Virus record (IMG/VR): IMGVR_UViG_3300035228_001239 | Coordinates: 1-21,249 of that record | Direction: 5' to 3' (one strand) | Origin: a virus | DNA length: 21,249 nt | Part shown: positions 6,801 to 21,249 of the stretch, piece by piece | How the letters are laid out: each line of letters opens with the position of its first letter | Position numbering within the stretch: position 1 is the stretch's first letter | Notes under the pieces: generated by a model | What the model was told of the DNA's origin: nothing | Database searches by the model: none | Seen by the model: only the letters and a program-made list of their open reading frames with translations | Program-made: the position numbers and the translations under genes

Positions 6801-8732
6801 AATTTGGACTAGACCATCTCCACTGGCAGTTCTTTGATTAAACTGTCCGGTCCACCATCGGTAATCAGAGACACCATAGTCGGGAGTAGAGAACTGATCG
6901 AATAGTAAATCACTACCGGCAGTAGTACTACCATAAGAAACGAGATTACTAGTACCACCATAACCCAGAGTACCCTTACCAACACCTTGTCCACAATCGT
7001 TTAATAGCCACTTCCTCAAATCATCAGATGTAGCACCGGGGTTTCTCTGTAGGTATAGAGCAACCAGTCCAGTAACTACAGGAGCAGCAGCGGATGTACC
7101 GTTGAAGTTAGCATCGAAATGAGTAGGGTTATCATATCTCTGGAAGTCTGCATAAGTTCCGCTAGGAAGACCAGCAGCTAGAGTATCCTCGGCAGGTGCA
7201 TAAATGTCAACACCAGGACCACTGTTAGAATATTGTGCTTTTCTTTCTTTAAAATTAGATTCTACAAAGTCATCAAGAGCACCCACATTAATAACAGGAT
7301 GGTATCCAGTAAACTCATTAAATCCAATGCCCTGAGGGTTCATCCAATCTCTATGGGATGTTGGTGTCCTCTGACCACCAAACTCAGTCCTTGGATCATT
7401 AGAACTAAATGTTAAATCCTCAACTCCATTAAGTCTATGAGGATCCGTAAATCCAAGACCAATATACTGGTTGTTATTACCAGCAGCAGCGACCATAATG
7501 ACACCGGCTTCCATCATCTCATCGCCAGCATTATTAGTGGCGTTAGATCTAGATGAAGAAGACCAGGATTTATAAGCACCAATCACTTGATTATTGAAAC
7601 CAATAATCATATCTTCGACACCAGATGGTTCTCCAGCGGCGAGAGTTGCTACATCAATTGCACTAGTAATACCAGTAAATTTATATCTTGCAACTCCTGT
7701 TGCAGGAACAGCAGCTTGGTAACCCCAAGAACCGTTAACAACCGTAGGATTTCTTACACCAGTTTGCGTATTTACTGGTTTATATAAGTGGAAGAACTTA
7801 ATGAGATCATAAGATGTCTCAATGTCCATACCAACATTATCAGACACACAAGGCATTGCCCAGATGTTTGACTTAAATGCCAGACCAAAGTTTTTACCAG
7901 CAGCAAGAGATGCAGCTGCAGTACCGTGACCACTACCTAAGTTATTAGAACCTGCAGTACCAATACCAATAGCACCATTCCTATTGTATCCAGAAGGAAT
8001 AGAAACTTCAGGAAGAAGAACAAACTCAGAAGATCTAGCGTTGTTATCTTCCCACCATGCTTCTGCTCTGCTGGTATCAATACCAGTAGATCCATCTGCT
8101 AATGTAAAAGTAAACCCATTGACAGCAAAATATCCAGGGTCAAGATAATATGGGAAGTCAAGAACAAGATCAAGCACCCTACTTGTTCCATCATCATTCA
8201 AGAATTCTGGGTGTGATTGCAGAGTACCAGAGTCTTGAACAACAATATCTACATCTCTACCATCATATAAGAAGTTAAAGTTACCCTGCTTAGGTGCAAT
8301 ATCACCAACAACACCAGCCCAAAACTCTCCGTTGGTTGTAATACCAGAAAGTCTAGGAAGTGCCCAGTTTGTTCTATTTAATTCTGCAGAGGTTGGATTT
8401 GTGGCTGGTGGACCATTACTATCTAAGTCCCTGTAAATTTTTACATCACCAGAAAATCTGTTGGGCATCACCAGAGATGGATCTGGAAAGCTTTCTCTAT
8501 TATCTTTTAGTGAAAGTTCAATCCACTTGACATAAGGATGACGACCAATCTCTTGAGCCTCATCATCCGTTAACTCATAAGTACCACGAACCGCACTGAT
8601 TGAGTGCGAGTCGGTACAAGTTATTTGTCTGTCTGGAATTCCATCTTGGTTTGAGTCAATGGTGAGAGCACCATGAATATCGTTCCAATGTTCCGCACTG
8701 GTAACTGCCAGGGTATATCTTTTAAGAGTCAT
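3783..8732 (-). CDS. Giant virion-type protein: N-terminal subtilisin-like protease fused to a fibre-like region (1649 aa)
   Basis: Residues about 1-75 resemble an inhibitor-I9-type propeptide (LTDDEAQEIGRHPYVKWIEL). An S8 subtilase domain follows at about 155-580 with a complete apparent catalytic set: Asp167 (IVVQDSG), His269 (GSGHGT), oxyanion Asn419 (AAAGNNN) and Ser547 (NGTSAAAP). Next come two Fn3-like repeats (about 690-770 and 812-888, both with SGTLKA and RHLSN), then two copies of a beta domain (about 900-1000 and 1022-1118). Two copies of a module with F-x-GDGS and SAGIVTIT follow (about 1133-1192 and 1262-1320), with Ala/Thr-rich stretches after them. A C-terminal domain of about 270 residues ends the protein. 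The modules after the protease resemble cyanophage tail-fibre proteins, so a virion role is likely. The protease could mature the fibre or cut host surface protein. A late-type box lies 33 bases upstream. Confidence 0.85.
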   Translation of the reverse strand: MTLKRYTLAVTSAEHWNDIHGALTIDSNQDGIPDRQITCTDSHSISAVRGTYELTDDEAQEIGRHPYVKWIELSLKDNRESFPDPSLVMPNRFSGDVKIYRDLDSNGPPATNPTSAELNRTNWALPRLSGITTNGEFWAGVVGDIAPKQGNFNFLYDGRDVDIVVQDSGTLQSHPEFLNDDGTSRVLDLVLDFPYYLDPGYFAVNGFTFTLADGSTGIDTSRAEAWWEDNNARSSEFVLLPEVSIPSGYNRNGAIGIGTAGSNNLGSGHGTAAASLAAGKNFGLAFKSNIWAMPCVSDNVGMDIETSYDLIKFFHLYKPVNTQTGVRNPTVVNGSWGYQAAVPATGVARYKFTGITSAIDVATLAAGEPSGVEDMIIGFNNQVIGAYKSWSSSSRSNATNNAGDEMMEAGVIMVAAAGNNNQYIGLGFTDPHRLNGVEDLTFSSNDPRTEFGGQRTPTSHRDWMNPQGIGFNEFTGYHPVINVGALDDFVESNFKERKAQYSNSGPGVDIYAPAEDTLAAGLPSGTYADFQRYDNPTHFDANFNGTSAAAPVVTGLVALYLQRNPGATSDDLRKWLLNDCGQGVGKGTLGYGGTSNLVSYGSTTAGSDLLFDQFSTPDYGVSDYRWWTGQFNQRTASGDGLVQIVYLDVNAGILTEFAGITEPSIESPINNDIGISTEGLLLRSSEYIAVGDTTVSGTLKAIEMQLSVASDFSSIVWESTGDNNTNVIQTVDVQLAGFTTHYARTRHLSNDDGTAFTAYVSDYSVGIVSFSTLGNAPGVQAPTVTSPISGSTLNQRFGIALVSSAFVSIDSEAVSGTLKAVEFEVAEDIGFSTIVFTSIGDNNTSLSQIIPDGLNSSHTFYVRCRHLSNADGTSGVEHTSPFSAVVTFTTPGAALAEVGRLASIKTTLTNGVVEPVQLYEADNLLEVSISVANQNDFRSTFSIGISSTPGFKKSDFITYGIPLERGGTRLIEKVGIKPGDKIFVSSFDPNISFLAFATRKFDKLGPDSALVHGRRRSGTLGFKPPFQINTNLEFFTAQEDSLVTVHATNQNSDSTVGMSVGLSSGGIAEFQESDYLVFGLRLAPLQDVQIDNLALAKGQSLIVRGSKPNLTFVAHSVPQDPGPSGIGTNINVNTTGNITATSFFGDGSGITGVTGVGAGVIIKDNDSPIGTAATINFGQNLTVSQISAGIVTITAADTVSVAQTANSLAAGVSVPKATQADFATVAGIATVATTATSAQTADSATTAGTAAQLDAAATITSNNDITAPRFIGDGSQLTNIVAAGSGVIIQDSGSAVGTAGTVNFNAGLDVSPVSAGIVTITINEAPRATLAGIASEAIVAGIATYATLAGLASQANNALFANSSSFSTLTGAADTAKNLYTQFEGTFKPLPTTIGTKTTDHRYFGIGSDRSINVQGYESPYLRFEVGQTYRFTNASQQANYPIRFYYAPDGSAVGFGTTTPNQFSDNVTETGTYTEILIDENTPQLLYYGAGIGTRFGNMGNSIQVFNNDFHKVSRVGEFKNLVGLKTATYTQFYEGRATSWYMNSNLGVGNSDYTPGDRSHNVSSIEQTATGTYNVNFSDAMNDTDYAVIGIASGTNAFPGGIVNLRISDRTVNGYTVRVYNGIPALEDLGELSIMTLGGQDGERTYI

Positions 8733-8774: not shown

Positions 8775-8783
8775 TGGTAGAAT
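8775..8783 (+). promoter_or_regulatory. Extended -10 promoter for hldD
   Basis: The plus strand reads TGGTAGAAT, an extended -10 (TG-n-TAGAAT, one mismatch from TATAAT). The predicted start near 8790 leaves a leader of about 16 bases that includes AAAGAG as a ribosome-binding site. The surrounding TATGGTAGAATAT nearly matches the promoter of the glycosyltransferase operon at 16088. No good -35 was seen. Confidence 0.5.
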
Positions 8784-8805: not shown

Positions 8806-9600
8806 ATGAATATTGTTACTGGAGCAAAAGGTTTCATCGGTAGTCATTTTGCTAAGACCATGAATGATGTTCTTGAAATTGATATTGATAATTGTTTTGA
8901 TCTTCTAAACAAATTCAATCGTTGGGACGAAGTAGATATGATTATTCATATGGGTGCTCGTTCCTTTACAACAGATAAGGATGTTGACCTAGTTTATAAG
9001 TATAATATTGATTATAGTATAAAGTTATTTGAGAAAGCCATTGAGCATGGAATTCCAGTAAAGTATGCATCCTCGGCATCTACTTATGGCAAGTGTGATT
9101 CTGGTCCCATCATCAATCCTCTAAATTACTACGCGCTATCTAAAGCAACTGTTGATTACTGGGTGCAAGATAACATGCATAGATTCTCCCATATCCAGGG
9201 GTTTAAGTTCTTTAATGTATATGGTAGCGGTGAGGTCCACAAAGGAGAGCAGGCAAGCCTTGTAAGTAAGTTCAAGTGGCAATCTGCTACAGGCAAAGTT
9301 CACCCCTTTGAAGGATCAAATAAGGTACATAGAGATTATATCTGGGTGGGGGACATTGTAAGTGTTGTGCTCACTAATAGTGCAGGCAGTGGCATATACG
9401 ATCTAGGAACTGGTGCCGCAATTACTATTCAAGAGGTGGCAGATTTAGTCGCACAAAAAACCGAGGCTATGGTAGAGGAAGTTCCCTTCCCACCAAACCT
9501 CGTTGGTAAGTATCAATACAATACTCAAGCAGATATGAATTGGTTAACTTATAAGTTCAAAACCGTTGATGATTATGTCAATCACCACGATGAATTCTGA
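8806..9600 (+). CDS. hldD: ADP-L-glycero-D-manno-heptose 6-epimerase-like protein (264 aa)
   Basis: HldD is an SDR-fold epimerase that converts ADP-D-glycero-heptose to ADP-L-glycero-heptose, the donor for heptosyltransferases. Visible features: the nucleotide-binding loop GAKGFIGSH at the N-terminus, Ser-rich SSASTYG (about 89-95), catalytic Y109-x3-K113 (YYALSK), the HldD-specific FNVYGSGEVHKGEQAS (about 136-151, containing the second Lys), RDYIWVGD, and a C-terminal PFPPNLVGKYQYNTQAD that closely follows the HldD pattern. At 264 residues it is shorter than bacterial HldD (about 310). The start is ATG at 8806 (MNIVTGAKG, AAAGAG upstream); the frame extends 25 codons further, but that extension covers the promoter. 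It is the only plus-strand gene, divergent from the fibre gene and overlapping the cupin gene tail-to-tail by 23 bases. Confidence 0.88.
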   Translation: MNIVTGAKGFIGSHFAKTMNDVLEIDIDNCFDLLNKFNRWDEVDMIIHMGARSFTTDKDVDLVYKYNIDYSIKLFEKAIEHGIPVKYASSASTYGKCDSGPIINPLNYYALSKATVDYWVQDNMHRFSHIQGFKFFNVYGSGEVHKGEQASLVSKFKWQSATGKVHPFEGSNKVHRDYIWVGDIVSVVLTNSAGSGIYDLGTGAAITIQEVADLVAQKTEAMVEEVPFPPNLVGKYQYNTQADMNWLTYKFKTVDDYVNHHDEF

Positions 9601-9940
9601 TCGAGTCTGAGTCAAAGTGTTGCGTTGAAAACTCAAACAGTTCAGAGTCATCCAAAGCAATCATCTGATGCTTTAGTCCAGGAGGAACATAAAACTTATC
9701 CCCAGGTTCTAAGACTAACAATTCTGATTTACTAAGATCGTCATCCCACCCATAATATAATGAGATGAGGCCACTCTGTAAGTAGAAGGTCTCATCTTTT
9801 AGTATGTGATAATGCCAAGAGCATCTCTTATTCTTTTCAATGAATAAGAGTTTGCCACAATACATTTTATTATTTACAATCCACTTTTCATATCCCCATC
9901 CTTTGGATACGATTTTAATGTCTGAAGAAGTCTTTGTCAT
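9578..9940 (-). CDS. Cupin-fold sugar-metabolism protein (120 aa)
   Basis: This is a single-domain cupin, a small beta-barrel usually binding one metal ion. The first cupin motif is seen as CSWHYHILKDETFYLQSG (about 39-56, two His and one Glu ligand) and the second as PGDKFYVPPGLKHQMIAL (about 78-95, third His). The N-terminal KGWGYEKWIVNN resembles the start of cupin domains in mannose-6-phosphate isomerase/mannose-1-phosphate guanylyltransferase relatives. Its place at the end of a nucleotide-heptose operon suggests a sugar or sugar-phosphate isomerase or epimerase role. One speculative possibility is a stand-in for the missing sedoheptulose-7-phosphate isomerase, but GmhA belongs to a different fold. 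ATG at 9938-9940 has AAAGGA upstream and overlaps the HAD gene by 26 bases. Confidence 0.75.
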   Translation of the reverse strand: MTKTSSDIKIVSKGWGYEKWIVNNKMYCGKLLFIEKNKRCSWHYHILKDETFYLQSGLISLYYGWDDDLSKSELLVLEPGDKFYVPPGLKHQMIALDDSELFEFSTQHFDSDSIRIHRGD

Positions 9941-10241
9941 TGATTCCTTTGTCGTCTATGTAGTAATCAGCTGAAGGTTTTCCTAAGTATAGATTGTGAA
10001 ACTTACATCCCCACGATTCTATTTGATTCTTAGTAAAGTCATAAAACTCTTTCTCAGATAGATCTCTATCGTTATTATATCTACCCATACCTCTAGCAGT
10101 AAGATAGGTAATGATATGTCCCTCATCATAGAGTTTATTTATTGTTTGTATGCGATCCCACATGGGTGTTGCGTGGGTATACCTGTGTTCTCCTTGTCCA
10201 GGAAAACAAATAGTACCGTCAATATCAACAGTATATCTCAT
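9915..10241 (-). CDS. Small HAD-superfamily phosphatase (108 aa)
   Basis: This is a minimal HAD-type phosphohydrolase. Motif I is DIDGTI at about residues 6-11 (nucleophile Asp6, acid/base Asp8), motif II is LTARG (about 47-51), and the C-terminal LGKPSADYYIDDKGIND supplies the motif III Lys and motif IV Asp pair. It has no cap domain. The layout matches a small HAD family found in bacterial capsule and LPS gene clusters. In context it is a candidate for the GmhB step (heptose-1,7-bisphosphate to heptose-1-phosphate), though it is much shorter than GmhB and lacks its Cys/His zinc site. That assignment is inference. The start overlaps the stop of the upstream carbamoyltransferase as ATGA, indicating translational coupling. 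Confidence 0.78.
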   Translation of the reverse strand: MRYTVDIDGTICFPGQGEHRYTHATPMWDRIQTINKLYDEGHIITYLTARGMGRYNNDRDLSEKEFYDFTKNQIESWGCKFHNLYLGKPSADYYIDDKGINDKDFFRH

Positions 10242-12073
10242 TCGGAATCATCAACTAAACTATAATTAATTTTTCCCCGTTTACCACTGTTAGAATTCTC
10301 TGGTATGTACAACATTTTAGAACATTCTGGGAAATAAACATACTCTAGTTCAGATCTCTTCAAAGTATCAACAGCATCTTGAACTGTCTCACAAATCGTA
10401 TCTCCCCCAAGATTAAAAGAAGTATTAAGGAGCATTGGTATGCCAGTTCTATTGTAAAACTCTTCTATCAATTTATAATAATTTTCGTTCTGGTCTTTAG
10501 AAACTGTTTGAATTCTACATGTCTTATCAACATGAAGAACTCCGGGAATTTTATCCCAATTTTTCTCATGAGCATTGACAGCAAACATCATGAAAGGACT
10601 TTCTTCAAGTCCACGCATATCAAACCAGTCATTAACATGGTCCAACAATACTGATGCAGCAAAAGGTCTCCACAGTTCACGACCTTTCTTTTTATTCATA
10701 ATAAATTGTGCTTTTGGATTTCTAGGATCAAAAAGTAAAGATCTATTTCCAAGAGCACGAGGTCCTTGTTCCGATCTCCCCTGAAAGATTGCTACTGGAT
10801 TGCCTTCCATGATCCTATCAACAACTGGTCCAACCCCCGTAACAAAGTATGAACTCTCCGGGATTATATGATTATTTGGTGGACCGAGGTAGAGACTCTT
10901 CAAAGGTTTGATCTCGGTTGACTTAGTTTGTTGTCTCCACTCAAGCATTGCTTGCCCAGCAGAGAGACCAGCATCATAGCAAATTGGTTCAACAAATAAT
11001 TTACCACCCTCGGGTAAGTATTTTAAGTATTCGTAGTTAGCTACACAATTTAAAGCACATCCACCAGACAGCACAACATTTTTACATCCAGTAATTTCAA
11101 CTGCTTTTTTGATGAGAGAAATCATATAAGACTCAAAGTCTTTTTGCATCTTATATGAAAGATCACAATTAACAGAGAATTTAACTCTCGGATCCTCAAC
11201 TTGATCTGGTGCCGTCAGAGCAGGACCAGCCCTAACCGAATCATCTTCCTCTCGTATACATCTCTTTGCCCCATCATTATACATCTTAAATAGATCAATC
11301 TTTCCACTTGGAGCAATGTAATCATAATAATCAATGAGAACACCGTTCATTATACGAACGAATATATCCTCATTCACTTCACCATCAATTACAAATGGTT
11401 TTATATTGTCATTATCTTTTCCGTATGGAGCAAGACCCATCGTCTTTCCAGATGCAGTATAGTCAAATCCAATGTACTCACTAGCTGCAGCATATGCCAT
11501 ACCAATTCCCGTGGTTGGATTTTCAACCTTCTCATCAGTTTCAATGAACACTGGGACATATCTTTGATGTAGTAGTTCAAAGTTATGTGGATAAGAAGCT
11601 TTATAAATGCTTTCAACTTCATGACCACCCTTATTGATAGCTCCAGCGCCATCAACAACTACTACGGCAGCTTCTTTGAATCCAGAATTATAAAAACCAA
11701 TAGAAGCATGAGACAAATGGTGTTGGTTTTCAAACGACTTACATTTATATTTGTTTTTTCTCATCACTTTAGAAGCAACAAGAAGACAAATATCAATAGA
11801 ATCACCTACCATTTTCTTTTCCAGAGGAATTTCAATGGTAGTATATGCAATCAAGGAATCGTTAGATACAATTCCATTCCCTGTCAAGATAGACATGAGA
11901 GGATATGAATCATGTTTTCTATGAGTCAGTCTTTCTTCTTCTATCATCCATTGAACTTTACCATCGACAAGATAACATACCGAAGCATCGTGAGCAATGT
12001 TCATCGATAAGATATGTTTAACATTATCAGGTAGAATCGGAACTTTGGTTTGATGGTCAAACAATTTACTCAT
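10238..12073 (-). CDS. NodU/CmcH-family O-carbamoyltransferase 1 (611 aa)
   Basis: Enzymes of this family move a carbamoyl group from carbamoyl phosphate, through a carbamoyl-adenylate, onto a hydroxyl of a sugar or antibiotic. The N-terminal Kae1/YgjD-like domain has the metal-binding HHLSH (about 118-122) followed by VVVVDGAGA. The C-terminal domain has LSGGCALNCVANYEYLK, the family signature GPRALGNRSLL, RPFAASVL and LLNTSFNLGGD. The length of 611 residues matches complete family members. An acceptor sugar made or transferred by the same operon is the likely target. It is clearly paralogous to the carbamoyltransferase at 13215-15038 but diverged, so the two may modify different hydroxyls. 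ATGA overlaps exist at both its start (with the kinase) and its stop (with the HAD gene). Confidence 0.9.
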   Translation of the reverse strand: MSKLFDHQTKVPILPDNVKHILSMNIAHDASVCYLVDGKVQWMIEEERLTHRKHDSYPLMSILTGNGIVSNDSLIAYTTIEIPLEKKMVGDSIDICLLVASKVMRKNKYKCKSFENQHHLSHASIGFYNSGFKEAAVVVVDGAGAINKGGHEVESIYKASYPHNFELLHQRYVPVFIETDEKVENPTTGIGMAYAAASEYIGFDYTASGKTMGLAPYGKDNDNIKPFVIDGEVNEDIFVRIMNGVLIDYYDYIAPSGKIDLFKMYNDGAKRCIREEDDSVRAGPALTAPDQVEDPRVKFSVNCDLSYKMQKDFESYMISLIKKAVEITGCKNVVLSGGCALNCVANYEYLKYLPEGGKLFVEPICYDAGLSAGQAMLEWRQQTKSTEIKPLKSLYLGPPNNHIIPESSYFVTGVGPVVDRIMEGNPVAIFQGRSEQGPRALGNRSLLFDPRNPKAQFIMNKKKGRELWRPFAASVLLDHVNDWFDMRGLEESPFMMFAVNAHEKNWDKIPGVLHVDKTCRIQTVSKDQNENYYKLIEEFYNRTGIPMLLNTSFNLGGDTICETVQDAVDTLKRSELEYVYFPECSKMLYIPENSNSGKRGKINYSLVDDSE

Positions 12074-12864
12074 AGTCCTAAAATCCTATCAACATCATCC
12101 ATCCTGATAGTATATGTACCAGGATTCTGTACTGCAACTGCTGCTGCCTTGTTAGCAAAAGAAATAGACTCTTCCATAACAGGGAGCTGAATATAATAAA
12201 ATACCAGAGCAGCAAGAAAAGTATCTCCTGCTCCAGTAACATCAAAAGTTCTTACAAGATCTTTGCAAGGAAACTTTTTCTTGTTCCACAAGGCACCATC
12301 AGCACCAAGAGTAACAATCATATTTTCCCCGTTAGGAATGTCACTAGAATCTAATTGTTCAAACTCCTTCTGATTTATCTTGTAGATAACATTACTAAAC
12401 TGAGTAGGTAGTTTAGTTTTCTTCGTGTCAACAAATATCTTTGTACTCGGATACCTACCGGCAATATAACTAATGGTCTCAGTATCAGGTAGAAATCCTT
12501 TATTGTAATCGGAGATTATAATTGCATCATAAGTATCATGCATCAGTGCCATTTGCAACTGAGATGGATGCAATGGTTTTACATTAGATTCAGAGTCTAC
12601 TCGGACGATTTGCTGACCACTCTTCTGATCAATATATCGTGTCTTCTTTAGCAACTCTGTATTACATATAAAACTTACAGTGATGCCGAGTGATTCTAGA
12701 TTCTGCTTAACATTACCTGCCATACCGGAAGCAGTATCTGTACCAGTTTCAACAAGGACAGGTACAGGTGCTTCTGGACTCAGACGATCACAGTCTCCAT
12801 AGACCCACTCATCGGTACAATTATCCCCGATCAATAATACTTTGTATTGTTTTGCTAGTTGCAT
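12070..12864 (-). CDS. hldA: HldE/HldA-type heptose-phosphate kinase (PfkB family, 264 aa)
   Basis: By analogy with the HldE kinase domain it would phosphorylate D-glycero-D-manno-heptose-7-phosphate at C1 using ATP. The N-terminus reads VLLIGDNCTDEWVYGDCDRL followed by SPEAPVPV; the SPEAPVPV segment is characteristic of HldE. Further features: SGMAGNV (substrate/glycine segment), KTRYID and QQIVRVD matching the HldE middle, SDYNKG, and the PfkB signature DVTGAGDTF (about 208-216, catalytic base Asp214). It is about 50 residues shorter than the E. coli HldE kinase domain, partly through loss of a segment after the GG loop. In bacteria this domain is often fused ahead of the nucleotidyltransferase; here the two are separate genes in reverse order with a 44-base overlap. 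The start ATG has only a weak ribosome-binding site, so it may depend on coupling. Confidence 0.85.
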   Translation of the reverse strand: MQLAKQYKVLLIGDNCTDEWVYGDCDRLSPEAPVPVLVETGTDTASGMAGNVKQNLESLGITVSFICNTELLKKTRYIDQKSGQQIVRVDSESNVKPLHPSQLQMALMHDTYDAIIISDYNKGFLPDTETISYIAGRYPSTKIFVDTKKTKLPTQFSNVIYKINQKEFEQLDSSDIPNGENMIVTLGADGALWNKKKFPCKDLVRTFDVTGAGDTFLAALVFYYIQLPVMEESISFANKAAAVAVQNPGTYTIRMDDVDRILGL

Positions 12865-13222
12865 AATTTTCTAAACGATCAAAGAATTTCAATTCGGCGG
12901 CATACATGGAACCGATAACACTTTTATCTTTCCAATCCGATCCGACTATCATTATATCAGGTTGATATGCTTTTATCAAGTTCTCTAGTTCTTCATCACT
13001 AGAGAAAGAGAAAACTTTATCTACAGACTTAAGTGCCAATAGCATTACTTGTCTATCTAGACACGAATTAACAGGTCTAGATTCACCTTTCATCTCTCTA
13101 ACTCTAGCGTCAGTGTCGATAGCGACAGCAACTTCATCACCTTGGGACTGGGCATAATCTAAAAGTGCAAGGTGCCCACGATGAAGAACATCAAATGTCC
13201 CATTAACAAATACTTTAGTCAT
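12821..13222 (-). CDS. hldC: HldE/HldC-type heptose-1-phosphate nucleotidyltransferase (133 aa)
   Basis: By analogy it joins heptose-1-phosphate and ATP to make ADP-heptose. It is a cytidylyltransferase-fold enzyme with NGTFDVLHRGH at the N-terminus (H-x-G-H at 14-17), then VAVAIDTDARVREMKGESRP and VN, a segment that closely parallels the HldE C-terminal domain (SDAS-x-KRLKG-x-SRPVNP). VGSDWKDKSVIGS occupies the place of KGGDY in bacterial HldE, and the C-terminal ATSKTIQSI corresponds to the STT-x-II segment. Full length for a stand-alone domain. A glycerol-3-phosphate or other cytidylyltransferase cannot be excluded, but the neighbouring HldE-like kinase and HldD-like epimerase favour ADP-heptose. 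It overlaps the upstream carbamoyltransferase by 8 bases and the downstream kinase by 44. Confidence 0.85.
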   Translation of the reverse strand: MTKVFVNGTFDVLHRGHLALLDYAQSQGDEVAVAIDTDARVREMKGESRPVNSCLDRQVMLLALKSVDKVFSFSSDEELENLIKAYQPDIMIVGSDWKDKSVIGSMYAAELKFFDRLENYATSKTIQSIIDRG

Positions 13223-15038
13223 TAGAAACTTTTACAATCTTACCATATTCAGGAAGATATAGATACTCGATGTCAGAATTTGCAAGGGTCCGAAGAGCAT
13301 CATCAAGAGTTTCTACAAGAGGTTCTCCACCAAGATTGAAAGATGTATTGAACAGAATAGGAACACCAGTCTTCTCATAAAAAGTATTGATCAAATCGTA
13401 ATAGTTTTTATTCTGCTCTGGTGTGACAGTTTGAATACGACATGTTTTATCAACATGAATAATAGAGGGAATTTTTTCGTCCACTCCAGGTTGACAGTTG
13501 ACTGCATACATCATGTGAGGAGTCTCTTCCAAACCACGCAGATCAAACCATTCATCAACATGTTCTTTGAGAATTGAACCCGCGAAGGGACGGAAGAACT
13601 CACGATGTTTGATTGTATTTACAAAATCTTTACCGTCAGGATCACGGGGATCATAAAGGATAGAACGGTTACCAAGAGCACGAGGACCAGATTCAGATCT
13701 ACCTTGGAACATAGCAACAATGTTCTTTGTAGTAATGAGATCAATTACATCTTGATTAGAACCTTCGGATACTTCGCCACCATACTTTTCTGTAGTCTCA
13801 ATGATATCACTGGCATTATAATGATGCTCAGGTCCCAGATACAAACTTTCGGCATATGGTTTAACTTCGGTATCATTATTAGCATAATGATGCCAGAACA
13901 AAGCTGCTCCAATAGCAGTTCCTGCATCATTACTTACTGGTTCAACATAAATGTCAATTCCTTCATCCTTGAGTTGCTCTAAGTAATAATAGTTGGCAAC
14001 ACAGTTAAGACCATATCCACCAGAAATAGCGACATTTTTAATTCCAGTAAGATTAACAGAAAATCTGATCAAATCTAAAACTTGTTCTTGAGAATCTTTT
14101 TGAATCTTATAGGAGAGATCCTTACGATTCTTTAGTCTAACCAAGTCTTTGAATGACACATCAATAGGAGTAGACAACTCTCTATTAAGTTGGTCATTTA
14201 CAATAGCACCATTTGGATAAGTTGGAGTAATTAATGACTGATTTACAGGTCTATAGTGAGGAACAAACTCATTATTTTCACGAAAAATTTCTGGGATATT
14301 TTCATTCTCACTACCATAAGGGAAAAGTCCCATAGTTTTACCTGCTTCAATAGAATCAAATCCATTGTACTGAGTTACAGCTTCGTATGCTTTTACAATT
14401 CCAGCAGAGGAATCTGCAATCAGGATACATTCCGAATCATCAGAGTGGTCAAACTGATTATTTTTAAATGATGGATCAATAAGAAGTGGTCTTAGTCCAT
14501 TACCACCCAAATGCCTATACCTCGCCTCAATTTGTGCAGGGTAAGAACATTGGAAAACACTTTCAGTTTCATAAAGCATCATTTGACGACCATTCATAAC
14601 ATGATCGTAAAAGGTGCCAGCACCATCAACAACTACAGATACTGCTTTATCAAATCCCGAACGATAAAACGCACAGGTTGCATGAAGCTTATGGTGAATA
14701 TTACCTACATCAATAACTTGAGGGTGAGTTTGTTGTTCGGGATCATAATTTGCTTCGCTAGAAATCAATCCTAATTTTCTAGCGAAAGAAGTGTATGGAT
14801 CCTCCCCACAATAATCCAGTTTGGCAGCACTGTTTTTCATCAACTGTGTGTGTGCTACTACTAGATAATCTAATTTATCAGTATACTCTTTGATTTTTAA
14901 AATAGAAAGTAAGGGTGCTCCATCATACTTTTTACGAGAGAGTCTTTCTTCTTCAATGGCAAAGACAACTTCACCATCCTTTAGTAAACAAACACCAGCG
15001 TTATGTCCACGGGTGATGCCAGCAATCCATTGTGTCAT
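13215..15038 (-). CDS. NodU/CmcH-family O-carbamoyltransferase 2 (607 aa)
   Basis: A second complete carbamoyltransferase with the same architecture as the one at 10238-12073. The N-terminal domain has HHKLH (about 115-119) and VSVVVDGAG. The C-terminal domain has ISGGYGLNCVANYYYLE, GPRALGNRSILYDPRDPDGK, RPFAGSIL and ILFNTSFNLGGEP. The two proteins share motifs and length but differ widely elsewhere, for example in the segment before GPRALGNRS and in the region between the two domains. This suggests an old duplication or separate acquisition, and different acceptors. It starts by ATGA overlap with the glycosyltransferase gene and ends overlapping the nucleotidyltransferase by 8 bases. Carbamoyl phosphate would come from the host arginine/pyrimidine pathway. 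Confidence 0.9.
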   Translation of the reverse strand: MTQWIAGITRGHNAGVCLLKDGEVVFAIEEERLSRKKYDGAPLLSILKIKEYTDKLDYLVVAHTQLMKNSAAKLDYCGEDPYTSFARKLGLISSEANYDPEQQTHPQVIDVGNIHHKLHATCAFYRSGFDKAVSVVVDGAGTFYDHVMNGRQMMLYETESVFQCSYPAQIEARYRHLGGNGLRPLLIDPSFKNNQFDHSDDSECILIADSSAGIVKAYEAVTQYNGFDSIEAGKTMGLFPYGSENENIPEIFRENNEFVPHYRPVNQSLITPTYPNGAIVNDQLNRELSTPIDVSFKDLVRLKNRKDLSYKIQKDSQEQVLDLIRFSVNLTGIKNVAISGGYGLNCVANYYYLEQLKDEGIDIYVEPVSNDAGTAIGAALFWHHYANNDTEVKPYAESLYLGPEHHYNASDIIETTEKYGGEVSEGSNQDVIDLITTKNIVAMFQGRSESGPRALGNRSILYDPRDPDGKDFVNTIKHREFFRPFAGSILKEHVDEWFDLRGLEETPHMMYAVNCQPGVDEKIPSIIHVDKTCRIQTVTPEQNKNYYDLINTFYEKTGVPILFNTSFNLGGEPLVETLDDALRTLANSDIEYLYLPEYGKIVKVSND

Positions 15039-16042
15039 TGTCCAAATCCTTTGTTAGGTTCACAGCAAGAATTATTACTTGGAGTTTCTGGAGATGCAGT
15101 TCCAGAGTAAGGTTTAGACTTTCCCAGTCTCTTCCTACAAGAAGTAATAACCCTTTTAATATCTTCCTTACTCATTTCCATACATTCATCATTCATTAGA
15201 TCTTGATAATCCTCCATGGTGAGTCTGATAGGAGAGAATGTTCTCTTACCCTCTCCAAGATCAAGTATATCAAAATCTTTATCACCAGGATAAGAAATAT
15301 TCTCTGGATAAGTAGAACCAATTACAGCAGTGACTGTAGTGCCTACAGACTTAGCAATATGTTGACCAACTGAATCACATCCTAAGAAGTGATCGGCACA
15401 TTCAATAATACCTGCCCATGTACGAATATCTCCCTGAGGCCAAGCACATGGAATTTTACTTTCATCCACATCAATAGGAAACTGAAATTCGGACATGATA
15501 ATGACACCATAATCTTCTCTAAGATTATTGATGATATCTACAATATAACTTTGATGGAAACTCCTAGAACTAGGATCAATAATATAGTCTCCTCTAACCT
15601 CAGCGGTTCTACCGAAGGGTTGAATAACAATAGTCTTTTCTTTACCAGTCTTTGCTTTAATTTCTTCTACAATGTTGATAGCACTAATAGCTTCAGATTT
15701 AGAGAGTTTAATTTTTGGTGTAGGAAGTTCTCTTGGTTCTGTAAGACCATTGATTTCCATATCAAATGCTTGAGCAATATTACACTGCTGATTGTAATAG
15801 TGCCACTGACGATATGGTTCTGGAGTTACACAATCTCTAGGTTTGATATAATCTTCAAAAAGATTTTTATGCCAATTATCAAAGGAATATTTGTGCAGAA
15901 TAGGATGACCTTTAAAGAAATTCATTCCGCCTTCACATACGATAATAAAATCATCATGAGTTTCTGCGTATTTTTCAAATGCAGGGATGGAACTAATTAC
16001 TCTACCAGCACCACCATTGATAAAGAATGCTTTTGATCTCAT
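15035..16042 (-). CDS. GT9-type (heptosyltransferase-like) glycosyltransferase (335 aa)
   Basis: GT9 enzymes, such as WaaC and WaaF, are GT-B-fold transferases that usually move heptose from ADP-heptose onto LPS core; some relatives glycosylate proteins. The N-terminal FFINGGAGRVISSIPAFEKY fits the first Rossmann strand and loop of the acceptor domain. The donor-domain signature is ECADHFLGCDSVGQHIAKSV with the D-S-x-G-x-H core at about 223-228, then TAVIGSTYPENISYPG. IVIQPFGRTAEVRGDY corresponds to the inter-domain strand where GT9 proteins have their donor-side glycine/arginine segment. The last 25 residues are Pro/Ser-rich and contain SCCEPNKG, unusual for the family. It is the first gene of the cassette operon, with an extended -10 promoter and a late box upstream. 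Confidence 0.8.
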   Translation of the reverse strand: MRSKAFFINGGAGRVISSIPAFEKYAETHDDFIIVCEGGMNFFKGHPILHKYSFDNWHKNLFEDYIKPRDCVTPEPYRQWHYYNQQCNIAQAFDMEINGLTEPRELPTPKIKLSKSEAISAINIVEEIKAKTGKEKTIVIQPFGRTAEVRGDYIIDPSSRSFHQSYIVDIINNLREDYGVIIMSEFQFPIDVDESKIPCAWPQGDIRTWAGIIECADHFLGCDSVGQHIAKSVGTTVTAVIGSTYPENISYPGDKDFDILDLGEGKRTFSPIRLTMEDYQDLMNDECMEMSKEDIKRVITSCRKRLGKSKPYSGTASPETPSNNSCCEPNKGFGQ

Positions 16043-16062: not shown

Positions 16063-16070
16063 TATTTAGT
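16063..16070 (-). promoter_or_regulatory. Putative late promoter box (ACTAAATA) for the sugar operon
   Basis: ACTAAATA on the minus strand lies 20 bases upstream of the glycosyltransferase ATG, identical to the box upstream of the Gly/Cys-rich gene (17898-17905). With the early-type -10 at 16088 it could allow expression in two phases of infection. Confidence 0.45.
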
Positions 16071-16087: not shown

Positions 16088-16096
16088 ATTATACCA
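16088..16096 (-). promoter_or_regulatory. Extended -10 promoter for the glycosyltransferase operon
   Basis: The minus strand reads TGGTATAAT: a perfect TATAAT (16088-16093) with an extended -10 TG. At 17-base spacing the -35 position reads TTACTT inside the terminator stem, a weak match. The predicted start is near 16081. The promoter abuts the U-tract of the preceding terminator. Confidence 0.6.
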
Positions 16097-16097
16097 T

Positions 16098-16132
16098 AAA
16101 AAAGGTCCCCAAGTAATCGATTACTTAGGGAC
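16098..16132 (-). terminator. Long-stem intrinsic terminator, minus strand
   Basis: The minus-strand RNA folds around the perfect palindrome AAGTAATCGATTACTT flanked by GTCCCT and GGGGAC, then C and a run of six U. The stem is about 12 bp with a tight TCGA-centred loop. One position is a U-G pair on the minus strand but a C-A mismatch on the plus strand, so minus-strand termination is favoured. Confidence 0.8.
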
Positions 16133-16211: not shown

Positions 16212-16982
16212 TTAGTCATCCTTAGTAATTCTTTGAGGACCTACCATTCCCTCAAGATCATCAATTGCTTTTTGCTTGGCAGAATTTTGGACATTAACTG
16301 CTGCTTCAGGGTCAAATGGCCATTGAATTAAGTAGGTTGAATTTCCAACATCAGACCAAGTTGCGGGAAGATCTCTAAGTTTTTGTCGATAATCTAACCA
16401 GGGTTGCTTAACAGAATCAGGAATATCAGAAGCTGATACCCGGTGATCACATTCAGAAAGCATACTATTTCTCAAGTCTCTTACTACAGTCCATGAGAAT
16501 CTTTCAGTTTCTCCATCTGGAACTGTAATCTCAGCAGCAAAATCAGGTCTGAATTGAGGATTCTTCCATACATTATTGACTACATCATATCCACAAGAGC
16601 GAGGAATGATAGATTCATAGAGGCTAAGCGGATCACAAATGTCAGCATTAGGTTCGGAATCTGGTCCTACTTGAACCTCAACTCTATCGGGTTCATATGC
16701 AACACCATATAACATAGCTGCATGTATGGGATATTCTTCAGCGTCGAGAATAACTTCAACACAATCTATAGGACAAGGCATAAATCCGCTAGGATCATCT
16801 ACACCCCAGCAACCTTGACTCCAATCATCAGGGATAACCCCATTTGAATCGGGCATAGGCCATCTTGTCCTAAGATATCTAGGTCCGATGTAAGTAGCAA
16901 TTCCTACTTCAGTATCATCCTGAACATCACCGCAGTATTGTTCTGGAACTGGGAATAAAAAAGTTTTGGTAATTTTAGACAT
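16212..16982 (-). CDS. Putative fibre accessory protein with tail-assembly-chaperone-like C-terminus (256 aa)
   Basis: Residues about 1-160 are not recognised. They are acidic, rich in Pro, Trp and Cys (including PCPIDC and CDPLS), and have a beta-rich look. The region about 164-223 (VVRDLRNSMLSECDH, then WLDYRQKLRDLP, then LIQWPFDP) resembles the R-x2-LL...D...W-x2-YR-x2-LRD-x-P pattern of phage tail assembly chaperone C-terminal domains (Phage_tail_APC-like). This suggests a role in folding, trimerising or attaching the neighbouring Gly/Cys-rich protein. ATG at 16980-16982 has a strong AAAGGAG ribosome-binding site and lies 18 bases after that gene, so the two are co-transcribed. Two tandem terminators follow. 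The function of the N-terminal part is unknown; it could itself be structural. Confidence 0.7.
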   Translation of the reverse strand: MSKITKTFLFPVPEQYCGDVQDDTEVGIATYIGPRYLRTRWPMPDSNGVIPDDWSQGCWGVDDPSGFMPCPIDCVEVILDAEEYPIHAAMLYGVAYEPDRVEVQVGPDSEPNADICDPLSLYESIIPRSCGYDVVNNVWKNPQFRPDFAAEITVPDGETERFSWTVVRDLRNSMLSECDHRVSASDIPDSVKQPWLDYRQKLRDLPATWSDVGNSTYLIQWPFDPEAAVNVQNSAKQKAIDDLEGMVGPQRITKDD

Positions 16983-17000: not shown

Positions 17001-17864
17001 TTACTGCCAGAAAGATACTACGACCAACCCACTGCCGCCATATCCACCCCAACAGCAACTGCCATCAGTATGAGCGGATGATCCACCACCGCCAGGGAAC
17101 AGAGCGTGTCCTCTACAGCATCCGTGACCAGTACCAGCAGAGCAGTTATCATCAAACATTCCACCCCAAGTTGCGTAAGGACCAACGGCAGATCCAGCAA
17201 GCGCACGGTGGTCACCACGACAGTAACTAGTGTTCATTCTCATACCGTTGACACCTTTGATACCATATGAGCGATCTCTATCGTCAATACAGTTTGGGTT
17301 TGAAGTAGTTACAATACAAACACCACCACACTGTTGCATGTGAGAACAACCGTAACAGTTTTGAGTACAACGGTGGTGACCCCATGACCCACCTTCAGCG
17401 CAGAAGTTACTCATTCCTCCCGCAGCACCGTCAAATGGTGTTACGAAAGAAGTACATCCTTTAGTACCACAACAGTTATAAGCGTGAGAATACCCACAGC
17501 AAGAACAACTGTTACCACCGGCACAAATAGTATATCGACTTGATCCAGGAGTAAAGTGCCCACAATGAGCAAACACAGTTCTCACTGCATAAGACCCAGA
17601 TCCGCCACCAGGACCGCTACTACAGCAAAGACCGGGAGATCCAGATCCTCCAGCAGCTGTCAATTCAAATCTTACAGACTGAGTATTTCCGGGTACTGTC
17701 CAGAGAAGGCAGCATCCAGTGGAGGCACCATAGCATGTATTTTCATACACATAAAGTTGGTGAGCAACCGCTGTGGATAGACCAACAGCCTGAGTTGATG
17801 AGATTGTGGCAGGTAGAATAGCATCACTGCCGTTAATCTTTTTATAACTTTGATACTTCGCCAT
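17001..17864 (-). CDS. Gly/Cys-rich fibre-tip-like structural protein (287 aa, 26 Cys)
   Basis: The N-terminus (about 1-40, MAKYQSYKKINGSDAILPAT) looks like a virion attachment segment. From about residue 54, WTVPGNTQSVRFELTAAGGS begins a glycine-rich beta domain of the type found in phage tail fibres, ending GGYGGSGLVVVSFW. Between these the protein has 26 cysteines, including seven CC pairs (51-52, 80-81, 122-123, 131-132, 249-250 and 270-271, plus closely spaced C120), and 11 histidines in Gly-rich loops. Such a density suggests many disulfides or bound metal. Glycine-rich loops are also the receptor-binding element of some T-even adhesins, so a host-recognition tip is plausible but unproved. 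It has its own late-type promoter and is paired with the chaperone-like gene downstream. Confidence 0.75.
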   Translation of the reverse strand: MAKYQSYKKINGSDAILPATISSTQAVGLSTAVAHQLYVYENTCYGASTGCCLLWTVPGNTQSVRFELTAAGGSGSPGLCCSSGPGGGSGSYAVRTVFAHCGHFTPGSSRYTICAGGNSCSCCGYSHAYNCCGTKGCTSFVTPFDGAAGGMSNFCAEGGSWGHHRCTQNCYGCSHMQQCGGVCIVTTSNPNCIDDRDRSYGIKGVNGMRMNTSYCRGDHRALAGSAVGPYATWGGMFDDNCSAGTGHGCCRGHALFPGGGGSSAHTDGSCCWGGYGGSGLVVVSFWQ

Positions 17865-17952: not shown

Positions 17953-20900
17953 TCAGATGGTGATGATTCTCCAACCCTGTGTGCCATCGTAGAAGACCAA
18001 TTCAAAAGCAGCACCATCAGTGTCAATTGTCATGTCAGCAGCATCGCCCATGATTGGGTTGCCGTTTCTAATGATCGTAAGGTTGTTAGTGTCAAATGTG
18101 TCTGCGACATCAAAGATTCTAACGCTATCGCCCTTAACAGGAGATGCGGGTAGAGTAAGATTGAATGCACCACCAGAGGTGTTACAGAAAGCTTGCTGCC
18201 TGTTAGCAAGAGTTACATCAGCAGTTGCATCGACATTAGCGTATGCGCCCAGAGGCAACCAAGCACCACCGTTATAGAATTCAAATCCATTTGCATCTGT
18301 ATCGTAGCGGAGACCGCCTTCAATCAGATCAACACCAGTAGGTCTGCTTGCCTGAGCACCGCGAGGAGGAACCAGGATGCCAGATGTGACATCCATCTTA
18401 CCGCGAGTCAGGAATCCACGAACTGCTTTCTCAGTAGGAGAAGCAGAGTTCGAGTCGCCTGCCATGGTCTCGTCAGATGAGAACTCGTTAATTGCTTCAC
18501 CAATCTGACCACCAATAGCACCCAGTCTCAGTTCCGTCAAACCAGACAGGTTGAAAGCGGAAGCATCCAGGGTAGCAGCACCAGTCAACTGGTTGACAGA
18601 GAAGAATTCACCAACTCTGAAGTTACCACCTTGGTCAGTGGAGACGAAGAAGATCTTACCAGAGTCCTGAACATTAGTTTCATTACCCTGAGCAGCATTG
18701 TTCTCGTTAACATTCGGGTAACCAGTGTCGGCAGTATTACCAGTACCGATCAACAGGAAGTCATGACCCGTGAGACGAACCTTTGAGAAGTCCGTTCTCA
18801 TTGTGAACTCTTGATCATCGAACGATGCAGGTGCAGAACCCTTACCAGGAGCAACATTGATCGTTGCACGACCAGTGCCAGAATCATAATTGGTTACGGT
18901 TCTAATGATGTACACACCAGTGTCAGAGTAACCCATACCGACAGTAGAGAATCCAAGAGCATCACCAACTTTAGGTGTTGTGCTCAGACCAGTGATCTCG
19001 AACAGGATATCTTTCTGACCAGAGACTGCATTAGAAGCAGACTTGATTTTGAATCTACCAGTTGCACCTGCACCAACAGAGTCAGTCTCAACAAACTCAC
19101 CAGGAACGAAGACAGTAGTACCAACACCAACAGCACCGTTAGCACCATCAGGGTTACCGAAACCACTGTTATACTTGAAGTAGATCTGTTCACCAGACTG
19201 CTGATCGTTAGAAATAACAGCACGAGCACCCGATAGAGTACCACGCATCGTAGCACCAACAGAAAGCGTACCCGCTACCTGACCAACAACGAGTTCCAGT
19301 TTGTCACCGAAGAGGCGACCAGTTCTTGCAGTCTCAAGGGTGGAGAAACCAACCGCGACAGCACCATAATCACCATAGGAATTGTTACCAGATAGAGATC
19401 TGATTTCAGAACCATCATCGGAAACATAACCGAAGGAGCAATAGTATGTGAAAGAAGAAACGATCTCAGCAAGAGCATCGTCTTCCAACCAGTAACCCAT
19501 ACCATCGGAATGAATGTGGGTGAAGGCGTCGAAGACCATCGACTTACCGCCTTTACCTTCGGGTTTGCCCTCGTGGACACCACCCTCAATGTGAACACCA
19601 ATAGCACCACCGTGACCAGTGCCATCCGTAGTTACATCAGAGAAAGCAGTACAGTCTTTAATGTAAGGAGAGCGTTGAAGGATCGGAGTCTCAGGGTTCA
19701 GTCTGAAGTAAACACCACAACCAGTGGTGCCAACACCAACCTTTGGACCCCAGAGGTCAGTATTGAATGGATCACTTGAATCGTATCTGAAACCTTCCAG
19801 ACCCTTCATCGTGATCGACTGAACCGTGCAGGAATCAGAGACGAAGAACATGGTCGAACGACTGTTCGGCGTGACTCCATCATAGGAAAGACCGTCAGCA
19901 GCTTCGACGCTTGTACCTCTCAGAACATCACCAGCGATGTTGAAGTTCTTAGGTAGAGTAATTGGAAGTCTCTCTTTGAATACACCAGCAGAGAGTTTCA
20001 GGATAACTGGAGATGCATCAGTTACAGTACCACCAGTCACATAATCGTGAGCGATGGTAGAGATACCAACATTGGTTATGAAAGTATTGGAGTCAGTAAC
20101 AGAGTTAACTCTGAAGAAGAATCCTTGTGTACCGTCAGGGAAGAGAGTAGTTGTGACACCAGAGTGTGCAGAACTACAGGTCATTGAAATGCCAACTAGT
20201 TTTACCTGACCGTTGGGGAACAGACCATGACCAGATGCGGTGATCGTTGCAATACCAGTGGACTCATCATAAACAAATGCACTAACTGGTGCAACTGTCT
20301 GTGCAGCAGTAGACGCATATGAAATATTAGACCATGCTGAGTCGGGAGTAAGACCAGTATTGTTGTTGCTGCCCTGCTGAGCATCAACATAGTAAACCTT
20401 GGTACGAATACCAGGATACTCCCATACAACCTCATCGCTAGAAGATACTTTCAGGAATGTACCTACAGTACCAATACCTTGTCTGGTCGGACCAGTTGAG
20501 TTTCTAGTAAGAATGTCGCCTTTAGTTGTCAGCAGTGCTGCGCTATCACCGATAGCAAATGCCTGCCACATTGTGACGGCAGTACCAGGAGTGACATTAA
20601 TGTTAGAAGATGCAACCGAGATGTATGCCGAAGAGGAATACTCTACAAGGTCACCAATTTCATAGTAATTGGAAGTAGAATATGTGCCGTTCCAGTTGGT
20701 GCCTTCAACAAGCAAACTCCAACCACCAAGTCCAGTTGCTACTGAAGTAATAGCAGTACCAACTGGTCTAGTTTCAACAGGGATTAAAGTATCATCAGCA
20801 ACATAAGTGTTACCACCTAACTGTACAATTTGACCTCTAGAATATGTCTGAGTAGGATCATATGTAGCAGCACCACCTGTGCCGATGCCACCAATCAGCA

Positions 20901-21249
20901 GTGACCACGCATCAGTGTTTTCTGCAGGGTCAAGAGCACGAGGATTGGTGCCGATAGCAACATAAGATGCACCGTTATACTCAACGATGTCACCTCTTTC
21001 ATATCTACCAGAAGAATCAAACTTAAGTTGGTTAGCAAAACCTTCGGAGAAGGTAGCAAAGTTTCCACCAGGAGGATAGAAACCATCCGAACCAATACCC
21101 GTTAAGTCATGCGGGGATGTGGAGATACCCTGCATTGTATAGTCTGCAGGGACTTGGAATGGTGTGGTACAACGATACTGGTAGGGACCGTAGCTAACAA
21201 TAGCGTTGATACCATAATAAGTGTCAGTGGTGAACGCACCTTTAAAGCT
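17953..21249 (-). CDS. Long fibre-like structural protein with beta-helix, N-terminus outside the window (at least 1098 aa)
   Basis: The frame is open to the right edge: the 38 codons upstream of the first in-window ATG (21135) contain no stop and read as coding (TTDTYYGINAIVSYGPYQYR). The true start is therefore outside. About four repeats of a carbohydrate-binding-like module follow each other (core Y-x2-GD-x-VEY...Y...W, e.g. YERGDIVEYNGASYVAI and YEIGDLVEYSSSAYISV). A linker leads to KVYYVDAQQGSNNNTGLTPD, which resembles the opening of a right-handed beta-helix (pectate-lyase-like) domain of phage fibres or tailspikes. The C-terminal 150 residues (LRYDTDANGFEFYNGGAWLP and onward) resemble a common fibre end domain. 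It is most likely a tail fibre or baseplate-associated protein with glycan-binding ability; enzymatic activity of the helix is not evident. Confidence 0.82.
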   Translation of the reverse strand, partial: SFKGAFTTDTYYGINAIVSYGPYQYRCTTPFQVPADYTMQGISTSPHDLTGIGSDGFYPPGGNFATFSEGFANQLKFDSSGRYERGDIVEYNGASYVAIGTNPRALDPAENTDAWSLLIGGIGTGGAATYDPTQTYSRGQIVQLGGNTYVADDTLIPVETRPVGTAITSVATGLGGWSLLVEGTNWNGTYSTSNYYEIGDLVEYSSSAYISVASSNINVTPGTAVTMWQAFAIGDSAALLTTKGDILTRNSTGPTRQGIGTVGTFLKVSSSDEVVWEYPGIRTKVYYVDAQQGSNNNTGLTPDSAWSNISYASTAAQTVAPVSAFVYDESTGIATITASGHGLFPNGQVKLVGISMTCSSAHSGVTTTLFPDGTQGFFFRVNSVTDSNTFITNVGISTIAHDYVTGGTVTDASPVILKLSAGVFKERLPITLPKNFNIAGDVLRGTSVEAADGLSYDGVTPNSRSTMFFVSDSCTVQSITMKGLEGFRYDSSDPFNTDLWGPKVGVGTTGCGVYFRLNPETPILQRSPYIKDCTAFSDVTTDGTGHGGAIGVHIEGGVHEGKPEGKGGKSMVFDAFTHIHSDGMGYWLEDDALAEIVSSFTYYCSFGYVSDDGSEIRSLSGNNSYGDYGAVAVGFSTLETARTGRLFGDKLELVVGQVAGTLSVGATMRGTLSGARAVISNDQQSGEQIYFKYNSGFGNPDGANGAVGVGTTVFVPGEFVETDSVGAGATGRFKIKSASNAVSGQKDILFEITGLSTTPKVGDALGFSTVGMGYSDTGVYIIRTVTNYDSGTGRATINVAPGKGSAPASFDDQEFTMRTDFSKVRLTGHDFLLIGTGNTADTGYPNVNENNAAQGNETNVQDSGKIFFVSTDQGGNFRVGEFFSVNQLTGAATLDASAFNLSGLTELRLGAIGGQIGEAINEFSSDETMAGDSNSASPTEKAVRGFLTRGKMDVTSGILVPPRGAQASRPTGVDLIEGGLRYDTDANGFEFYNGGAWLPLGAYANVDATADVTLANRQQAFCNTSGGAFNLTLPASPVKGDSVRIFDVADTFDTNNLTIIRNGNPIMGDAADMTIDTDGAAFELVFYDGTQGWRIITI

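Follow-up and report, generated by a model that had tools for sequence, protein, structure and literature searches.

A recurrent cyanophage cassette predicted to make ADP-heptose, with a cupin as its proposed isomerase and a link to tail genes

What a marine phage might do with a set of heptose genes, and whether it carries enough of them to make this rare seven-carbon sugar itself, are questions raised by the IMG/VR virus record IMGVR_UViG_3300035228_001239, a 21,249-base stretch of DNA referred to here as the window. An earlier note on this sequence named, at positions 8806-16042, genes and motifs of an HldE-type kinase and nucleotidyltransferase, an HldD epimerase, a small HAD phosphatase, a GT9 glycosyltransferase (GT) and two NodU/CmcH carbamoyltransferases, and all of them are present there. 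Our best explanation, to which we give a probability of roughly 0.6, is that the virus encodes a route from sedoheptulose 7-phosphate (S7P) to ADP-L-glycero-beta-D-manno-heptose together with a transferase pair placing carbamoylated heptose on the virion tail.

The carriage of heptose genes by phages is already known and is not in itself new: cyanophage heptose/lipopolysaccharide (LPS) genes were noted in 2010 (PMC3037559) and 2020 (PMC7378029), and the module is partly known from P-SSM2 and S-SSM7. In the accounts given by PMC11461863 and PMC11573728, Tang et al. 2024 (Science) found functional viral heptose enzymes and showed virus-encoded ADP-heptose synthesis enzymatically, the phosphatase being absent in viruses and the viral role not known according to the same accounts. 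What is new here is the cupin as the likely isomerase, an apparently complete route, the identification of the GT9 enzyme and the linkage to tail genes.

Layout and distribution of the cassette

PHROG families are matched by tail fibres of the window, by a glutaredoxin-like protein and by small proteins, and its distant DNA matches are nearly all Synechococcus and Prochlorococcus phages, which makes it a fragment of a T4-like marine cyanomyovirus. The cassette genes are as follows.

8806..9600, plus strand: HldD-like ADP-glyceromanno-heptose 6-epimerase, 264 residues (likely start 8806, not 8731)
9578..9940, minus strand: cupin, proposed S7P isomerase (GmhA replacement), 120 residues
9915..10241, minus strand: small HAD protein, EcbF/BcbF-like, proposed heptose-1,7-bisphosphate 7-phosphatase, 108 residues
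10238..12073, minus strand: NodU/CmcH-type O-carbamoyltransferase B, variably present, 611 residues
12070..12864, minus strand: HldE-type D-glycero-D-manno-heptose-7-phosphate kinase, HldA-like, 264 residues
12821..13222, minus strand: HldE-type heptose-1-phosphate nucleotidyltransferase, HldC-like, 133 residues
13215..15038, minus strand: NodU/CmcH-type O-carbamoyltransferase A, partner of the GT9 enzyme, 607 residues
15035..16042, minus strand: glycosyltransferase with a predicted GT9 fold, proposed heptosyltransferase, 335 residues

After a terminator, the minus strand thus reads GT9-like enzyme, carbamoyltransferase A, nucleotidyltransferase, kinase, carbamoyltransferase B, HAD and cupin, with all gene ends overlapping; HldD lies on the opposite strand and overlaps the cupin gene tail to tail by 23 nucleotides (nt). 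A matching gene order is found in the cultured phages S-SSM7, P-SSM2, S-CAM1, S-CAM3 and Sf-FS3 and in dozens of IMG/VR contigs, a recurrence which argues that the order is not due to chance. The cassette is a T4-like cyanomyovirus module recurrent in Kyanoviridae, which corrects the previous view of it as unusual phage cargo.

Kinase, nucleotidyltransferase and epimerase

HldD matches TIGR02197 (E=7e-55; 186.4 bits, curated cut-off 274.6), by far its best family, and its closest solved relative is the E. coli enzyme (1EQ2, E=3e-58). By alignment, the catalytic serine S90, Y109 and K113 of the YxxxK motif and K146, the HKG lysine, correspond to E. coli S116, Y140, K144 and K178 and are invariant in 11 phage homologues. 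The HldD residue check, one of those by which the earlier note's reading could have been refuted, thus did not refute it.

The kinase fits TIGR02198 (E=5e-41, against 1e-13 for ribokinase; 140.9 bits, cut-off 345) and the B. cenocepacia-type HldA 4E84 (E=3e-28). It keeps SPEAPVPV, QQIVRVD (QQxxRVD) and DVTGAGDTF, but has no counterpart of about 26 residues of E. coli HldE. In the tree, phage kinases cluster with HldE kinases and apart from RbsK/PfkB/FruK/YihV (support 98/97), so that this refuting check of the earlier note also left its reading standing; together with the profile scores the tree rules out a ribokinase-like enzyme. The nucleotidyltransferase, which has the HxGH motif, prefers TIGR02199 (E=5e-30; 104 bits, cut-off 181.5) over the glycerol-3-phosphate cytidylyltransferase model TIGR01518 (5e-16) by 14 orders of magnitude, ruling out a TagD-like enzyme. 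For all three proteins, family and catalytic residues are supported at the level of sequence.

A cupin as the candidate isomerase

Between HldD and HAD lies a cupin, conserved with the cassette, whose PHROG/database name is 'cysteine dioxygenase'. Its AlphaFold model (all models were built from contig sequences) has a predicted local distance difference test score (pLDDT) of 95.5, and the structures that Foldseek ranks highest for it in the Protein Data Bank (PDB) are D-lyxose isomerases, some of them with fructose or mannose bound. Interconversion of D-mannose and D-fructose is the same chemistry as that of D-glycero-D-manno-heptose 7-phosphate and S7P. The cysteine dioxygenase name is not favoured, the best structural and family links being to sugar isomerases.

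All eight sugar- and metal-binding residues of the Thermofilum D-lyxose isomerase (K62, H75, H77, K86, E88, H143, E156 and D163; PMC8378251) align one to one, by HMMER, with K30, H43, H45, K48, E50, H91, E103 and D110 of the cupin. Seven of these active-site residues are invariant among 60 cupin homologues and position 110 is Asp or Glu in 59; neighbouring outgroup cupin subfamilies lack H43 and D110. The Pfam family Lyx_isomer (PF07385) is matched weakly by all 13 phage cupins, the window protein scoring 18.7 bits, below the gathering score of 20.8, and is passed by the archaeal homologues L151 and L152 (21.2 and 25.4 bits). We predict with good confidence that the cupin is an S7P isomerase replacing GmhA. 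The route, which the earlier note called near-complete, is therefore probably complete, since this protein, unmentioned there though it lies inside the same interval, looks like the isomerase.

Genome context of the cupin and absence of GmhA

Kinase and nucleotidyltransferase accompany the cupin in 48/48 IMG/VR contigs with enough flank. Metagenome-assembled genomes (MAGs) of Woesearchaeota hold a fusion of HldE kinase and cupin with GmhB next door (L152:8065-9375), a fusion of GmhB, cupin and HldE nucleotidyltransferase (L153:8446-9873) and a cupin-kinase-nucleotidyltransferase operon (L151). MAG matches with phage-type gene order (L095, L097, L099-L101, L154), which look like binned phage contigs, were excluded from this cellular operon evidence.

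A GmhA hidden elsewhere in the phages is ruled out by nine complete cyanophage genomes, all with the kinase, in which TIGR00441/SIS searches gave no candidate. We surveyed 78 Binatia genomes and compared the HldE-positive ones: of those that have the cupin 0/11 carry GmhA, of those that lack it 37/50 (Fisher p=6e-6, an optimistic value because the genomes are related). Binatia cupins of intermediate score (68-93 bits), which fall outside the family, show no anticorrelation with GmhA. In 29 cupin-positive genomes, mostly from other groups, GmhA is above cut-off in none and an HldE nucleotidyltransferase match is found in 23. As for the hosts, GmhA-like matches appear in 33/151 Prochlorococcus-family genomes and score for the most part well under cut-off; a phage infecting hosts that mostly lack GmhA would therefore bring its own isomerase. 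The sole close cupin homologue in that family is on an apparent phage contig, and Prochlorococcus AG-409-P03 was dismissed as a cellular owner, its neighbours (including a RecA/UvsX-like protein, by sequence inspection) looking phage-derived. In a literature search that covered few subscription papers, we found neither GmhA nor the term sedoheptulose-7-phosphate isomerase tied to any cupin; the small number of articles in which both terms appear belong to unrelated fields.

These data also bear on the view that the cupin is a sugar-nucleotide tailoring enzyme, such as an RmlC-like epimerase or a ketoisomerase, with heptose 7-phosphate supplied by the host. Cupins of similar size do act on nucleotide sugars, and the profile made from the phage cupins finds CapF and further cupins as well; we nonetheless hold this to be unlikely in view of the eight-residue match to D-lyxose isomerase, the GmhB/HldE fusions in MAGs without GmhA, the phyletic complementarity and the scarcity of GmhA-like proteins in the Prochlorococcus family.

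A second type of sugar locus, in S-T4 and Sf-CH8 (L009 and L010), has nucleotidyltransferase, kinase, HAD and cupin, with no HldD match within the region retrieved; these loci possibly use the D,D-heptose form.

The HAD phosphatase

The HAD motif residues D6, D8, T48, K88 and D97 are invariant, and the solved relatives are 9IQW and 1XPJ. In profile searches the GmhB models gave no match and only the EcbF/BcbF and BT0820 models did, so that the protein, a small HAD phosphatase in the earlier note, is ruled out of the GmhB family and groups with the EcbF/BcbF capsule phosphatases. Its role as heptose-1,7-bisphosphate 7-phosphatase is proposed from gene context. In cyanophages and many T4-like phages, HAD proteins of this kind carry 'phosphoheptose isomerase' as a propagated mis-annotation (phrog_1238; L007:20975-21286, 22616-22945).

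Glycosyltransferase and carbamoyltransferases

The assignment of the GT to GT9 stood at the level of fold and failed at that of Pfam profiles: in the profile search the protein had no Pfam match and only TIGR02201 (E=6e-4), while the top 30 PDB matches of its AlphaFold model (pLDDT 85.6) are all GT9 heptosyltransferases, among them 3TOV, TibC (4RAP/4RB4), WaaC (2GT1) and WaaF (1PSW). By its predicted structure, then, the GT is of GT9 fold. C-terminal tails in the window protein and its homologues are of low complexity, often with a KGF-like end motif and, in many homologues, Cys pairs; in the window model the tail is disordered past residue 320.

Both carbamoyltransferases carry PF02543 and PF16861, as expected from the NodU/CmcH assignment, and are related to TobZ (copy A, E=3e-42, and 7XB6 at E=1e-53; copy B, E=1e-38). 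Copy A follows the GT in 38/38 contigs and copy B is found in 12/48 cupin contigs. Literature on cyanophages S-SZBM1 and ms29 (PMC9146016, PMC10436341) describes phage carbamoyltransferases as enzymes of pyrimidine synthesis, a reading that is doubtful if those proteins are of the NodU/CmcH type. In two contigs (L230 and L233), GT9 and carbamoyltransferase are followed by genes for 2-oxoglutarate (2OG) oxygenases, for a tryptophan halogenase and for a HAD that is GmhB-like, with no heptose kinase nearby.

Linkage to tail genes and promoters

Upstream of GT9 and carbamoyltransferase A, 36/38 contigs have fibre, Cys/Gly-rich or tail-fibre assembly chaperone-like (Tfa) genes. When the Cys/Gly-rich tail protein alone was used as the scan query, which avoids selection on the GT, all 49 of the 49 contigs with room had Tfa, GT9 and carbamoyltransferase directly downstream, 13 of them being distant. 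The corresponding features of the window, with the promoter-like elements, are listed here.

8775..8783, plus strand: extended -10 promoter-like TGGTAGAAT of HldD, from motif comparison across relatives
16063..16069, minus strand: T4-late-promoter-like box CTAAATA, about 21 nt before the GT start
16088-16096, minus strand: extended -10 TGGTATAAT, ahead of the GT gene
16105..16132, minus strand: strong terminator, a 12-pair hairpin with a run of T, separating the cassette from the tail-assembly gene
16212..16982, minus strand: Tfa-like protein (PF16778)
17001..17864, minus strand: Cys/Gly-rich tail protein, 9% Cys and 18% Gly, proposed as the acceptor of the sugar
17953..21249, minus strand: tail fibre, alternative acceptor, continuing past the window end

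CTAAATA occurs in 21/76 regions upstream of the GT against 2.1 in shuffles, and TGnTA[TG]AAT upstream of HldD in 25/52 non-redundant relatives against 0.9 in mononucleotide shuffles. A promoter scan of the window alone gave no excess over shuffles, only the comparison across relatives being informative.

We propose the virion tail, and not host LPS, as the target because GT9 and carbamoyltransferase are linked to the tail protein, the promoter before the GT is late-like, and neither heptose nor 3-deoxy-D-manno-octulosonic acid (Kdo) is reported to be part of the LPS core of cyanobacteria (PMC4390846). For the Cys/Gly-rich tail protein as the acceptor we see slightly better than an even chance. 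The same pathway could instead serve the host envelope, LPS or another surface glycan receiving carbamoyl-heptose, for example to block superinfection. LPS heptosyltransferases belong to GT9, WapO carbamoylates the LPS heptose of Pseudomonas (PMC8005017), a like proposal exists for pelagimyophage glycosyltransferases (PMC7029224) and the genes were earlier annotated as LPS genes (PMC3037559). This is the chief rival to a tail target, and we rate it as rather unlikely, given the reported composition of cyanobacterial LPS, a module without polymerase, flippase or ligase, and the constant association of the transferase pair with one tail protein and its chaperone.

In distant phages (L308/L326), the Cys/Gly-rich tail protein, GT9 and carbamoyltransferase stand together with a divergent HldD, a divergent cupin and a fused HldE, which is an independent assembly with a differently built supply route. 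Such assembly, the conserved gene order and promoters, and catalytic residues kept at 40-55% identity across genera make it very improbable that the locus is 'stuffer DNA', a possibility raised for cyanophage genes annotated as LPS genes (PMC3037559), or that its product is a small heptose compound that diffuses and joins no glycoconjugate, as might be imagined from NodU/CmcH enzymes that carbamoylate antibiotics (TobZ, GdmN).

Elsewhere in the window, a 1649-residue tail-fibre-like protein (3783-8732, minus strand) has an N-terminal subtilase (Peptidase S8) domain; in P-SSM2 a related S8 protein, PSSM2_297, stands alone. Right after the gene of the window come two adjacent 2OG-Fe(II) oxygenases (2703-3257 and 3245-3817, minus strand), and in Sf-FS3, among other contigs, similar oxygenases lie within the cassette, which suggests that hydroxylation may accompany glycosylation. 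The tail fibre at 17953-21249 is above the CBM_5_12 carbohydrate-binding cut-off.

Proposed route and its weighing

In the route that we propose, the cupin would convert S7P, a Calvin-cycle/pentose-phosphate sugar of the host, to D-glycero-D-manno-heptose 7-phosphate, from which the HldA-like kinase would form the 1,7-bisphosphate; the small HAD would strip the 7-phosphate, the HldC-like enzyme would yield ADP-D,D-heptose and HldD would epimerise it to ADP-L,D-heptose. The GT9 enzyme would then transfer the heptose, the most likely acceptor being the Cys/Gly-rich tail protein or the fibre encoded just upstream, and the carbamoyltransferase(s) would O-carbamoylate the sugar. Profiles, the kinase tree, the HldD residues and the GT9-fold model support the earlier note's proposal that an ADP-heptose route supplies a GT9 enzyme and that carbamoylation goes with it, and the pathway up to ADP-L,D-heptose is, in our prediction, likely. 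The analysis consists of sequence comparison, structure prediction and gene linkage, and from these we infer which substrates are used, that the HAD carries out the phosphatase step, what the acceptor is, where the carbamoyl group is placed and how the phage benefits.

Several observations weigh against this explanation. HldD, kinase and nucleotidyltransferase are all under the curated cut-offs of their heptose models, and the phosphatase candidate is not GmhB. Sequence similarity between the cupin and sugar isomerases is modest (PDB profile E of about 4e-6 to 1e-5), a quercetinase scores better by HMM and the Foldseek E-values among cupins lie close together. The Binatia contrast comes from related genomes, a few cupin-positive genomes have sub-cut-off GmhA-like SIS proteins (G006, G235, G242, G251) and one has a real GmhA (G004). 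As for the target, linkage to a tail protein is no proof of an acceptor, GT9 and carbamoyltransferase are kept in some phages without nearby heptose-supply genes, and the core genes also occur without this pair in S-SM2-type sugar loci.

A broader reading, which we advance tentatively and place somewhat below even odds, holds that an unrecognised family of cupin S7P isomerases takes the place of GmhA, in cyanophages as well as in Binatia, Planctomycetota, Patescibacteria and Woesearchaeota. It also holds that marine phages have a dedicated system of Cys/Gly-rich tail adhesin, chaperone, GT9 and carbamoyltransferase that puts carbamoyl-heptose on the virion, and that they come with a heptose supply of their own since their hosts mostly have none.

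If true, these proposals would complete the viral heptose pathway, which the 2024 cross-kingdom survey, in the accounts cited above, left without a phosphatase or a purpose, and would show that the first committed step of ADP-heptose synthesis has been solved a second time by an unrelated enzyme. They would correct two annotations that have spread, that of the HAD as 'phosphoheptose isomerase' and that of the cupin as 'cysteine dioxygenase'. The question put in 2010, whether the 'LPS' genes of cyanophages have a function or are stuffer DNA, would become directly testable, and tail proteins bearing carbamoylated heptose would represent a novel type of virion decoration among the abundant T4-like phages of the sea.

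Comparison with known systems

The bacterial ADP-heptose pathway consists of GmhA, HldE or HldA with HldC, GmhB and HldD. Kinase, nucleotidyltransferase and epimerase of the window are homologous to it, with motifs and catalytic residues kept, whereas its proposed isomerase is a cupin and not a SIS-fold GmhA, and its proposed phosphatase an EcbF/BcbF-like HAD and not GmhB. The cupin resembles the D-lyxose/D-mannose isomerases of its fold (Thermofilum TsLI, B. subtilis 2Y0O, E. coli Z5688) in structure and in all eight active-site residues, but it is about 120 residues long against 167-230, falls under the Pfam cut-off and would act on a 7-phosphate heptose, unlike those enzymes.

With the BAHT protein heptosyltransferases (TibC, AAH), which use an ADP-heptose donor and a bacterial protein adhesin as acceptor, the GT shares the GT9 fold, TibC being among its top structural matches; identity is about 10%, and WaaC and WaaF match about equally well. 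WapO is likewise, by description (PMC8005017), a carbamoyltransferase working with heptose, but its acceptor is the LPS core.

Related, too, are the cyanophage 'LPS' clusters (P-SSM2, S-SSM7, S-SM2; T4-GC 302-308): P-SSM2, S-SSM7, S-CAM1, S-CAM3 and Sf-FS3 carry the genes of the window in identical order. In these clusters the GT is named 'hypothetical', the HAD a phosphoheptose isomerase and the cupin a cysteine dioxygenase, and the papers on them that we consulted recognised neither a complete pathway nor a tail target. To the viral enzymes of Tang et al. 2024, as these are presented in the accounts cited, the window adds a candidate phosphatase, a cupin as candidate isomerase and a candidate acceptor.

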